From an uncultured Methanobrevibacter sp. (GTDB taxonomy: Archaea; Methanobacteriota; Methanobacteria; Methanobacteriales; Methanobacteriaceae), in assembly GCF_905235195.1 (NCBI RefSeq), contig NZ_CAJOKH010000008.1, forward strand, positions 1 through 53,679: 53,679 nucleotides of DNA, written 5' to 3'. The notes under the pieces are model-generated. The model was not told the DNA's origin and did no database searches. It saw only the letters and a program-made list of their open reading frames with translations. Positions 14,734 to 21,514 of this stretch are shown here, one piece after another. Both the position numbers and the translations under genes were made by a program. Within the stretch, counting starts at the first letter, position 1. Every line of letters starts with the position of its first letter.

Positions 14734-16251
14734 TTGAAAATCAAATGTCCTATTTGTGGAACAGAAAATAAGAAGGATAAGACCTACTGTAAGGTATGTG
14801 GTGCTAGTTTGAATACTGACCCAGATTATCTTGAAGATACATCAGAGAATGATTTTAGCTTAACCAATGCTCTTAAAGATATGGAAAAATCATCCTCAAC
14901 ATCTTCAAATGACCACAACGATAATGAAAAAATAGCTGCTGAAAAGTATCTAGAAGCACTTGAAGAAGAGCATGGCCTCAGTAGTGAAAAAACAGAAGAT
15001 ACTATTATAGAAGGACAAGCACAAGAGGATATTGATTCTGCATATAGTCAAGAAAACTTAAATAGTTCTTTTAAAGAGAAAATTGAACAATTATCTGACG
15101 ACTACATCATAGTAGAGCATGCAGAAGAAGAAACAATTGAAGAAGAAAATCTCCAAGAAGAATACGCTCAAACTGAAGATCCAACTTTAGAAGAAGAAAC
15201 AACACACAAACAACACACAGACACAGAAGAAATCAAAGAAGAAACATACCTCATAGAACACACACCAAAAGAAGCAACAGAAACAAATCATGACCAAGAA
15301 TATCTCCTTCCAGAATACTCAGAGGAAGAATACATCCAAATAGAACACAGCCCAGAAGAAACAATAGAAGAAGAAACAACAAAAGAATACTACATCCAAA
15401 TAGAACACACCCCAGAAGACATAGCAGAAGAAGATAAATTCCAAGAGGAAGCTGCAATTCAAGAAGAAATTGAAAAACAAAAGGAGATTGCAGATCAAGA
15501 TGAAAACTCAGATGAGGATGACGAAGAATATGACTGGGTATACGATATATATCCTGATCATTCCTCTGAAGTTAAAACTGCAGAAGAACATGAAGATAAC
15601 CGGAATGAAGTAGAGCAATTTATTAAAAAACCTAAAGAAAAAGGGTATAAAAATCTACTTAAATTTGAAACAAAATCTCTTGAAGATAAAAATATAGATA
15701 AAAATTCATTTAGATATGTCCATAGGAAAGGAATAATGGTTTTAGGTGTTCTCATACTTTTAGCAATAGTTGGGACAATGACAATGCACTATATTGATGA
15801 AAACACCTTAAATTACTTAAGTGCAAGTAATTCAGAACCAGGACAATATACAAATAATATCATATCATTTAAACTACCGGCCACCTGGGAAAAATATAAT
15901 ATTACTGAGAAAAATGTGATTGGTAGTTATAAATCTGAAAAAGATGGACATAAAATACTATTAAGTGTTTATCAATCAAAAGTTTCAGGTAGAACATTAG
16001 ATGAAATTAAAAGTTCAACCGAAGAGTTAGATATTAGAAGCGGAGCTTTAGTCAATCAAAGCAAAATTGAAAACATTAAACATGTAAAATCATATGATGT
16101 TTTAAGTAGAGAAGGTGCTAATGATTATGAATATCGTACAATAGGATTTATTAAAGATAATAAAGAATATGCGTTCCTATTTGTATCTGACGACATAGAT
16201 ACATTTAATGAAGATATTAATGACTTTAAAAAAAGCCTTGAATTCTACTAA
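14734..16251 (+). CDS. Zinc-ribbon membrane protein with acidic repeat linker
   Basis: A 505-residue protein with TTG as start; a GGTTGGTG purine-rich stretch lies about 10 bp upstream, and the following ATGs are out of frame. A zinc ribbon at residues 5-22 (C5, C8, C19, C22) is followed by some 250 residues of very acidic, Glu/Thr-rich repeats including QIEHTPE/QIEHSPE units. Then come a basic stretch, one membrane helix at about 334-355 and a C-terminal globular domain (about 370-505) beginning with ISFKLPATWEKY. Topology predicts the ribbon inside and the last domain outside. The downstream gene has the same architecture with a basic linker. Function is unknown. Confidence 0.72.
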   Translation: MKIKCPICGTENKKDKTYCKVCGASLNTDPDYLEDTSENDFSLTNALKDMEKSSSTSSNDHNDNEKIAAEKYLEALEEEHGLSSEKTEDTIIEGQAQEDIDSAYSQENLNSSFKEKIEQLSDDYIIVEHAEEETIEEENLQEEYAQTEDPTLEEETTHKQHTDTEEIKEETYLIEHTPKEATETNHDQEYLLPEYSEEEYIQIEHSPEETIEEETTKEYYIQIEHTPEDIAEEDKFQEEAAIQEEIEKQKEIADQDENSDEDDEEYDWVYDIYPDHSSEVKTAEEHEDNRNEVEQFIKKPKEKGYKNLLKFETKSLEDKNIDKNSFRYVHRKGIMVLGVLILLAIVGTMTMHYIDENTLNYLSASNSEPGQYTNNIISFKLPATWEKYNITEKNVIGSYKSEKDGHKILLSVYQSKVSGRTLDEIKSSTEELDIRSGALVNQSKIENIKHVKSYDVLSREGANDYEYRTIGFIKDNKEYAFLFVSDDIDTFNEDINDFKKSLEFY

Positions 16252-16651
16252 TAATTAAAATAAATGAACAGATTGTGAATTTAGATTATAATTTAAAAAT
16301 GAAATTTTTAAATAAACATCTTTTTTAAGTCTCTTCATTAGAAATTAACAGACTTATTTCTAATTTTTTAAAATTTCCACAACATATAATAAAATTAAAT
16401 ATAAAAATAATAGAAATATTTAAATATAATGTAAAATTCATTTAGTATTTATAGAAAGAATAATATAAAATTTTTATTATTAATATATAATAATAAATTT
16501 AAATAAGATTATAAATAGCATATTAATGTTATAAGTTAAATTAAGCTTATAATTTAAAATTAATCATTATAAATAATTAAAATTAAAAAGAAAATCATAG
16601 TAAATTATATTAAAGATTTTTTTAACAAAAAATGTATTATTTAGGGATATT
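16252..16651. other. AT-rich intergenic DNA
   Basis: There is no gene in this 400-bp gap between the two zinc-ribbon paralogues. It is nearly all A and T. Several TATA-like stretches occur but none is clearly placed, and the downstream ATG at 16652 is preceded by TAGGGATA as a weak ribosome binding site. The spacing argues against one shared transcript, though it does not exclude it. Confidence 0.4.
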
Positions 16652-18168
16652 ATGTCAAGGTACTGTCCAAGATGTGGAAAAGAACATATTAAAAATGAGG
16701 AATATTGTCTTGATTGTCATACAAGATTGCCTAAAGATGAAATAGAACTTAATGATAAGACCCCTTTAAGTATTTTTAGAAATGAAAAAATGGAAAATGA
16801 AAAAATACAGACAGAAAAAAAGAATACAGGTCTTGGAAAAATATTTACCTATGAAAAAGCTCAAAATATTCCAAAAGAAGTGGAACAAACACGGAAAATC
16901 GAAAGGACCGCAAAACCAAAAGATACACAGAAAAAAACGCTAAACATTTTTAAAAGAAACACAAAAGAACAAAAAGAAAATATTCAAAAAAATAACGAGA
17001 AAAAAACAACAAGACCAAAAACAAATCTAAAAACAGAAAAACCAAAAACCAATACCCAAATTGAAAAACCAAAAACAAAACTAAAAACAGAAAAACCAAA
17101 AACCAATACCCAAATTGAAAAACCAAAAACAAAACTAAAAACAGAAAAACCAAAAACCCCAGACAATGCTAAAATTGAAAAACCAAAAACAAAACTAAAA
17201 ACAGAAAAACCAAAAACCCCAGACAATGCTAAAATTGAAAAACCAAAAACAAAACTAAAAACAAAAACCCCACAAAATATAAAAACAGAAAAACCAAAAA
17301 CCCCAGACAATGCTAAAATTGAAAAACCAAAAACTAGCCTAAAAACAGAAACCCCACAAAATATAAAAACAACAAGACCAAAAACAAATACCCAAATAGA
17401 AAAACCAAAAACAGATTTAAAAACAGAACGAAAAACTAACATAATCAAAACAAGCCCAAAAACAAAAGAAGTCAAAAAAGAACAATCAACTAACATAGAC
17501 AAAAACATAAAACCAAAAACAGATTTAAAAACAGAACGAAAAACTAACATAATCAAAACAAGCCCAAAAACAAAAGAAGTAAAGACTCCTCAAGGAAATG
17601 TAAAAACTAAAGCTAAAGAAAAAACTTTAGTATAAGTGAAGAGGATAAACGGAAAATAATCATTGGAGGATTAATTGTACTTGCAATACTTATCCTAATT
17701 ATTATTGCAGGAGTATTAACTAATCCTACCCTTAACAATTCTGAAACAGGACATACTAACTATAATTTTACTGATTTTGTTGTAAGTATACCTAATGATT
17801 ACAAGAAAAACAATGATACTGACTACATTACCGAATTTTCAAAAGATAATGTTTCTGTAAAATTCTATACTTCAAACCTAAAGGGAACTGGTTATCAAGG
17901 TACAAGTATTGAAAGTCTACAACAAGCAACGGTCAATAATATTGCAAATAATCTGAATGGAACCATTAGCTATAATGATTTAGTAGATCTTGATAATGGT
18001 TATAGAGGATATAATATAACATATAGCTCTGAGGGAAATGTCACAAGAAACATTGGATTTATAAAAGATAATGTAGAATATGATATAATAATCACCACTC
18101 CAGGAAATAATACGGAAAAACTTGATAATATTAGCTCAGAGATTATACCTACATTAAAAATCAACTAA
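16652..18168 (+). pseudogene. Frameshifted zinc-ribbon membrane protein with basic repeat linker
   Basis: The first frame encodes 327 residues: a zinc ribbon (C5, C8, C19, C22), a link, then about 210 residues of Lys-rich repeats such as KPKTKLKTE and KPKTPDNAKIE. It ends at TAA 17633-17635. The -1 frame is open from 17617 to the TAA at 18166-18168. It encodes SEEDKRK, a membrane helix (IIIGGLIVLAILILIII) and a 140-residue outer domain like that of the gene at 14734. Adding one A to the A6 run at 17619-17624 joins the two into a protein of about 505 residues. Decay, ribosomal slippage on A6, or a sequence error would all give this picture. Confidence 0.7.
17017..17600 (+). repeat. Intragenic minisatellite encoding Lys/Pro/Thr repeats
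   Basis: Tandem copies of a short unit whose core reads GAAAAACCAAAAACAAAACT encode KPKTKL/EKPKT repeats. Some 60-bp blocks are repeated exactly (17089-17149 resembles 17029-17089; two CCAGACAATGCTAAAATTG blocks follow). The end repeats a block of about 80 bp containing ATAATCAAAACAAGCCC. The coding strand is almost free of T and G, unlike the flanking code. Copy number is likely to vary by slippage. Confidence 0.75.
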
Positions 18169-19520: not shown

Positions 19521-20657
19521 ATGAATATTAAAAAAATAGCTACACTATTTATTTTACTGATTATACTACTTGCACCTACACTTAGTGCAGTTAGCGCAAC
19601 AAATGTGTTTTTAACCTCCGATACAATCTTTGGCCAGAAAGGTGAAGAAGTTAAAATGCTAAATGAAATTAAAACATATATTGAAGAAGAGGATAGTAGT
19701 ATAAATGTAACAGTAGATTCTGAATCACCAGGACCTGGTGAAGGTACAAGAGCTATGGTATCAGATAGTGATGTAAGTGTCGCTTTTGCATTTGCAGATG
19801 CAGCTAATTTTTATGAATTAGCTAAATACTCCACAAAAGTAGATAAACAGGTAATTTACGTTAATGTAGGTTCTCTTGATTTATATAATCTTACTCTTCT
19901 TCGAAGAGCATGGGATGATAACTGGTCAGATAAAACTTTCTTATCACTGAAAAATCCTGGAAATTTCTTAAGTAAATCTGGAGTAACTGTCATACAACCA
20001 GTACAAGCCCTTCCAGGAAATACTGATAAAGATGGAGACATGTATTATAGTGATAGTGAAAAAAACAAGTATATTGCAAGTCAGATTGTAGAGGCCGTCC
20101 ATAATTATAATTCATCAAACAAAAACTTAAGGGAAGGGGATATTATACGTACAGAGTTAGATGTAAGTGTAATTGGAGATATATCCCAAGGAATTATAAT
20201 AAACCAAAAATTAGGCCAGGAAAATGCAATTTATGCTGGATATACAGGCCCTCAAGCATTATACTTATTATCTTCATATCTTTCTGGAGAAGGATTAAAT
20301 AAACCTGGAGAATTTTCTAATCCAAGTTCCCCTCAAGATTATTCTGTAGGCACTCCGTCAAGTTATAGTGTATATGATTATGAAGAAATGGGAGGAATTG
20401 TTAAAAATTATATGGACAAAAATGGTCGTGCACCAGATTCTATACAATATAAGGGTGCAAGCATAGGATATAATGATTTGTTATATAATTTTGCACTTTT
20501 AACAGAAGACGATAAAGATGCAAGTAGTATGAACCTTCCAAAAACAAGTGAATTTAAATCAAGTAATGATATGACATTATTCTTCATTGCAATTGCAATA
20601 ATTGCAATAATTGGTGTAATATTACTATATATTGGAATTCGCAAAAGACGAAGATAA
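19521..20657 (+). CDS. Pseudomurein-binding repeat surface protein, membrane-anchored
   Basis: A 378-residue exported protein. Residues 1-26 form a signal peptide (KKIATLFILLIILLAP, then SAVSA). The middle (about 30-255) is a globular domain with a Gly/Pro-rich start (ESPGPGEG) that I do not recognise. A segment at about 277-320 (DYEEMGGIVKNYMDKNGRAP, then YNDLLYNFALL) matches the pseudomurein-binding repeat of Methanobacteriales. A C-terminal helix (about 352-372) with a KRRR stop-transfer tail anchors it in the membrane. It should sit between membrane and wall. GGAGAT precedes the ATG. Confidence 0.82.
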   Translation: MNIKKIATLFILLIILLAPTLSAVSATNVFLTSDTIFGQKGEEVKMLNEIKTYIEEEDSSINVTVDSESPGPGEGTRAMVSDSDVSVAFAFADAANFYELAKYSTKVDKQVIYVNVGSLDLYNLTLLRRAWDDNWSDKTFLSLKNPGNFLSKSGVTVIQPVQALPGNTDKDGDMYYSDSEKNKYIASQIVEAVHNYNSSNKNLREGDIIRTELDVSVIGDISQGIIINQKLGQENAIYAGYTGPQALYLLSSYLSGEGLNKPGEFSNPSSPQDYSVGTPSSYSVYDYEEMGGIVKNYMDKNGRAPDSIQYKGASIGYNDLLYNFALLTEDDKDASSMNLPKTSEFKSSNDMTLFFIAIAIIAIIGVILLYIGIRKRRR

Positions 20658-20995: not shown

Positions 20996-21514
20996 ATGGA
21001 AATAAGAAAATGTCCAAATTGTGGAAAAACAGATACTTCAGGATTTGGATTCTGTATATATTGTGGAAAAGAATTTACTCCCGAAAATGCGCCTGTAATC
21101 CATATAAATGAACCAGGAATAACTATTCAAAATTTTAATTCAGCTCAAAATTTTGATAATCAAAATATTAATTCTAACTTAACAGCAAATAATGAATTAA
21201 AAGGTAATGAAAAATTTACAGATAATCAAAGTGAAAATCTTAATACACCCAGATCATTTGAAATGAACCTTTTAATAATATTTGGATACATACTTACTAT
21301 TTTAGGAAGTTTCCTTGGATTAATTATAATTATATATCTAATAACACGTAAAGATTATAATATTAAAAGACATGGAGTTATACAACTTGCAATATTTTCA
21401 TTCTACGTTGTACTTATCGTAATACTCTTTTCAAACGGTACAATAGACATGAATACACTTGCACACGTTGGTCAAATGGAATATAATAATTTAACTAATT
21501 TACTGGGAAAATAA
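20996..21514 (+). CDS. Small zinc-ribbon protein with two membrane helices
   Basis: A 172-residue protein with an N-terminal zinc ribbon (C6, C9, C20, C23; CPNCGK and CIYCGK). An Asn-rich linker follows, then two hydrophobic helices at about 92-117 and 130-150, and a short tail. It is the third zinc-ribbon membrane protein in 6 kb, but it has no charged repeats and no outer domain like those at 14734 and 16652. Many archaea have such ribbon/TM proteins of unknown role. GGTAGGAT lies 6 bp before the ATG. Confidence 0.8.
   Translation: MEIRKCPNCGKTDTSGFGFCIYCGKEFTPENAPVIHINEPGITIQNFNSAQNFDNQNINSNLTANNELKGNEKFTDNQSENLNTPRSFEMNLLIIFGYILTILGSFLGLIIIIYLITRKDYNIKRHGVIQLAIFSFYVVLIVILFSNGTIDMNTLAHVGQMEYNNLTNLLGK

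Follow-up and report, generated by a model that had tools for sequence, protein, structure and literature searches.

The PsbP superfamily (PF18933 and PF01789) includes PsbP, CyanoP, DcrB and LpqN. Its fold is predicted for the outer domains encoded by two neighbouring genes, here called A and B, located in a 53,679-nucleotide stretch of DNA from an uncultured Methanobrevibacter species (the window). In A and B the PsbP-like domain is joined to a zinc ribbon through a charged linker and a membrane helix, a design that is not known for PsbP, DcrB or LpqN. TcaA of Staphylococcus aureus is described as having a zinc finger that is predicted to lie inside the cell, a single membrane helix and a large outer part, and as acting on the cell wall (PMC10328498). 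A and B resemble TcaA in architecture and in topology signals (ribbon inside, one helix, outer domain), which is a likeness rather than membership; charged paired linkers are not mentioned for TcaA in the available part of that source (PMC10328498). Oppositely charged chains that bind while disordered are known from prothymosin-alpha (-44) and histone H1 (+53), with a binding strength that is picomolar to nanomolar (PMC7661507). The linkers of A and B in the window species are likewise opposite in charge, and their net charges are of similar size to those of that pair; prothymosin-alpha and H1, however, are soluble human proteins whose binding was measured. Our literature search for this architecture found no description of such a protein type.

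The initial annotation of the window proposed that charge-complementary linkers pair A with B inside the cell and couple an outer sensor domain to a zinc-binding head. A and B are a real, conserved and genus-specific pair, the meaning of which is narrower than was first proposed.

Layout and topology of genes A and B

Gene A is a single open reading frame of 505 amino acids on the forward strand (positions 14,734 to 16,251). It opens with a predicted zinc ribbon of the form CxxC-x10-CxxC (14,746 to 14,799; cysteines 5, 8, 19 and 22, read from the sequence), followed by a strongly acidic linker of 304 amino acids (14,818 to 15,729; net charge -71), a membrane helix identified by hydropathy (GIMVLGVLILLAIVGTMTM; 15,730 to 15,786) and a PsbP-like outer domain (15,829 to 16,248). 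The final 60 amino acids of the linker, beside the helix, are not acidic. The start codon at 14,734 is TTG, and because gene A also begins with TTG in its three orthologues, this weak start may be conserved across the four species.

Gene B, also on the forward strand, is split in this assembly by a one-base frameshift. Its first frame (16,652 to 17,635; 327 amino acids) carries a predicted zinc ribbon with cysteines at the same four places (16,664 to 16,717), the motif TPLSIFR (16,760 to 16,780) and a basic repeat array of the KPKTKLKTE type (17,002 to 17,583) within a linker of 307 amino acids with a net charge of +47, and ends at an in-frame stop (17,633 to 17,635). The second frame, at -1 relative to the first (17,617 to 18,168), encodes the membrane helix (IIIGGLIVLAILILIIIAG) and the outer domain (17,752 to 18,165). 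The shift must fall in the overlap of the two frames (17,617 to 17,635), near a run of six A residues (17,619 to 17,624), and parts the linker from the helix and outer domain. In the other three species gene B is unbroken in a single frame, which attributes the break seen here either to an error in the draft assembly or to a lesion particular to this strain. Programmed -1 frameshifting is not favoured, since the orthologues are unbroken and the A6 context, inspected by eye, lacks a good slippery heptamer. A second motif, KIFTYE, is common to all four B proteins. An initial scan of genome contigs with gene B alone as the query gave no match.

The common plan that had been read from the sequence (ribbon, repeat linker, one helix, outer domain) thus stands for both genes, except that B, which had been taken as intact, is not one open reading frame here. 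The four-cysteine ribbons are present as described, and the contrast between an acidic first linker and a basic second one, both with repeats, is borne out. Against the Pfam zinc-ribbon family PF13240, with a cut-off of 25 bits, the A ribbon scores 25 bits in one run and 20.4 in another, and the B ribbon 22.5 and 19.6.

Each protein has one membrane helix, with a basic flank on the inner side and almost no lysine or arginine after the helix. N-glycosylation sequons, eight of which lie in the outer domain of B in the window, exceed the shuffled mean weakly in the outer domains of B (25 to 85 of 1000 shuffles reach the observed count), and the inner parts of the proteins hold at most one each. 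The scarcity of positive residues after the helix and the distribution of sequons point to an N-in/C-out topology as most likely, with the predicted zinc ribbon inside the cell.

Conservation and charge of the linkers

Gene A is followed directly by gene B, in the same direction, in all four species of the genus examined (the window species, the species of genome G001, uncultured Methanobrevibacter sp. RUG012, and Methanobrevibacter sp. 87.7), with gaps of about 60 to 400 bp. Two further genes of the window also have counterparts close to A and B in G001 and in RUG012: one encodes a protein that has a signal-like helix at its N terminus and another helix at its C terminus (19,521 to 20,657), and the other a third zinc-ribbon membrane protein (20,996 to 21,514). 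In RUG012, where the locus lies on the reverse strand (L037), gene A is frameshifted within the acidic repeat array; other species have intact copies.

The linker of A is net negative and that of B net positive in every one of the four species, despite strong differences in linker sequence between the two species pairs. Net charges for A and B are -71 and +47 in the window, -27 and +21 in G001, -72 and +17 in RUG012 (the A value computed by joining its two frames), and -9 and +24 in 87.7. The partners' charges do not match in size, as RUG012 and 87.7 show, and in 87.7 the linker of A has hardly any net negative charge. In a tree of the outer domains the four species form two sister pairs, so that independent support amounts to about two lineages and the opposite sign may have been kept by common descent.

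Both linkers are charge outliers to a degree that exceeds chance, the basic one more so. Among 289 predicted proteins from 400 kb of G001, none reaches +0.18 per residue in any window of 115 amino acids, and 14 of 283 have such a window at or below -0.15 per residue. The linkers of other zinc-ribbon membrane proteins, taken from the best-scoring loci of the same genome and four relatives, range from -5 to +5. Both linkers are probably disordered.

It is conceivable, though in our view somewhat unlikely, that the linkers are neutral low-complexity spacers produced by replication slippage, the charge of which has no function and stems from A-rich codons (AAA for lysine, GAA for glutamate) and drift. 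The repeat arrays vary among species and are weak or absent in some, a frameshift lies in or just after the repeats in two of the four (B of the window and A of RUG012), and basic repeats of the PKVEKP type have arisen elsewhere in the family to which A and B belong, all of which such spacers would predict. They would not readily account for opposite signs that persist through sequence change in four of four species, for charges this extreme against the proteome sample and other zinc-ribbon membrane proteins, or for an A repeat unit that is a defined peptide.

That unit is of the type Y-[IL]-x-[IV]-EH-[TSA]-x-E-E. It occurs in four copies in the window species and seven in RUG012, with one related copy (VIYPIHTVEE) in G001, versus 0 to 0.0015 in shuffled linkers, and VIYPIHTVEK occupies the matching position in 87.7. 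This excess makes a docking motif a rival to plain charge: the repeats of A could have arisen by amplification of a linear motif, YIxIEHTPEE, to which a partner in the cytoplasm binds, with acidity as a by-product. Such docking would be compatible with the other readings. We nonetheless judge it improbable, because the match between the two species pairs is short and because the G001 linker block, for which a search of 139 family genomes gave no other occurrence, suggests no partner.

PsbP-like outer domains and the wider family

The outer domains of A and B, each of about 140 amino acids, are homologous (hhalign E 1.8e-5), in line with the similarity noted earlier, and both are confidently predicted to adopt a PsbP-like fold. 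The AlphaFold models have pLDDT values of 87.7 for A and 93.9 for B, and PsbP chains are the top Foldseek matches for both (E 2.8e-7 and 2.3e-6). PF18933 (PsbP_2) scores 19.9 bits against the outer domain of A (E 8.2e-4), below its cut-off of 27. Of 16 family members that were aligned, 13 match it, with E values down to 8.8e-12. A sequence search of solved structures returned chance-level matches alone; PsbP was found by the fold search. What had been called an outer sensor domain is thus recast as a PsbP-like domain, and we found no evidence of sensing.

Of 151 genomes from the order, 142 contain a match to a profile built on the outer domain. Beyond A and B, 66 distinct proteins combine zinc ribbon, helix and PsbP-like domain, and 60 of them come from two neighbouring genera. 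The single-gene relatives in other Methanobacteriales (for example L022, L016 and L023) have the same domain order as A and B. They resemble B in their weakly to moderately basic linkers (in the 60, a net charge between -3 and +16 that averages +0.10 per residue) and, in the larger group, in an IF motif: an xIF sequence, mostly EDIF or ESIF, lies 14 to 16 residues past the last cysteine in 59 of the 60, and the SIF of B falls at about this place. The relatives differ from A and B in that the linker has only 21 to 71 amino acids (30 to 71 in the 60), no second member adjoins and the locus is a different one. At each of eight loci that were inspected, the single gene precedes a carbon-nitrogen hydrolase-like gene; three species of the window genus have no such gene at that position, and in the window's own assembly the contig ends there. 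As to the size of the zinc-ribbon repertoire, one genome (G084) has 55 matches to PF13240 versus 20 in G001, which is a large number.

A and B form separate, well-supported clades in the tree, which leaves a recent tandem duplication of the two unsupported. The tree neither establishes nor rejects them as sisters (p 0.375), and B joins the single-gene group weakly (63/56). A and B are diverged paralogues within a family of membrane proteins that cross the membrane once and occur in Methanobacteriales, and B is probably the genus version of the family-typical protein. In the genomes of the 60 relatives no acidic family partner was found among the matches listed, and the second matches listed there are short frames that could hardly accommodate a ribbon and a helix. 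Since the relatives carry mostly basic linkers without such a partner, the basic linker is independent of A; together with the IF motif it is the family norm, and the novelty is the acidic linker of A. The initial annotation held that its idea would fail if related genomes carried only single genes or linkers of random charge; within the genus the idea withstands this check, with adjacent acidic and basic genes in four of four species, while the 60 relatives outside the genus are single genes. Pairing of acid with base as a general mode is thereby ruled out for the family, and the role of the basic linker is another or an older one.

In an alternative reading the two linkers act independently of each other. 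In B and the single-gene relatives, the basic linker would contact a polyanion near the membrane, for instance nucleic acid or the headgroups of anionic lipids, while the acidic segment of A would fold onto its own basic juxtamembrane block or repel such partners, the two genes being neighbours as paralogues. Besides the 60 relatives, this is consistent with the bipolar character of the A linkers, the last 60 amino acids of which have a net charge of +6 to +10 in three of the four species. However, it leaves the acidity of the adjoining paralogue in all four species unexplained, and the tree does not show a recent tandem duplication. We consider this alternative doubtful.

Possible association of A and B

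The reading that we tentatively prefer, with a probability of about 0.4, is that A and B are envelope proteins of predicted PsbP fold, paired specifically in this genus, and that their opposite linkers may favour association. In each protein a probably cytoplasmic zinc ribbon is connected by a charged linker and a single helix to a PsbP-like domain directed toward the cell wall. A would be a second family member, which has an acidic linker and lies beside B. Most likely A and B would act together in the envelope. Polyelectrolyte attraction between the linkers would favour a heteromer in which the two PsbP-like domains meet outside and the two zinc ribbons inside, and the pair would serve in assembly or as a scaffold, and not as a classical sensor.

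Several findings are consistent with association. Order and strand are the same in all four species, and the sign of each linker is kept while its sequence diverges. The linker charges in the window are similar in size to those of prothymosin-alpha and histone H1, the tight binding of which suggests, by analogy, that a linker-driven heteromer of A and B would be physically possible. The two predicted PsbP folds, the probable topology and the IF motif of B and 59 of 60 relatives also fit. Against association stand the basic linkers of relatives that lack an acidic partner, the unmatched charges, and the sample of four species in two sister pairs. In addition, the A linkers hold acidic as well as basic blocks, so contact within the molecule is possible. 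The cytoplasm of methanogens is high in salt, and attraction between the linkers would weaken under such conditions. The bolder proposal, that two disordered cytoplasmic linkers form a membrane heteromer that is an archaeal counterpart of prothymosin and histone, with charge inside the cell uniting PsbP-fold domains outside it, we regard as unlikely.

An [ED][DSN]IF-type motif is near-invariant in single-gene relatives (L022, L054-L056, L061, L065 and others), and points to a cytoplasmic partner. A broad family of zinc-ribbon-anchored PsbP proteins in the envelope of Methanobacteriales extends the range over which PsbP-like domains are known. If the linkers of A and B do pair, they would offer a simple natural case of paralogues with opposite charge that form a heteromer.
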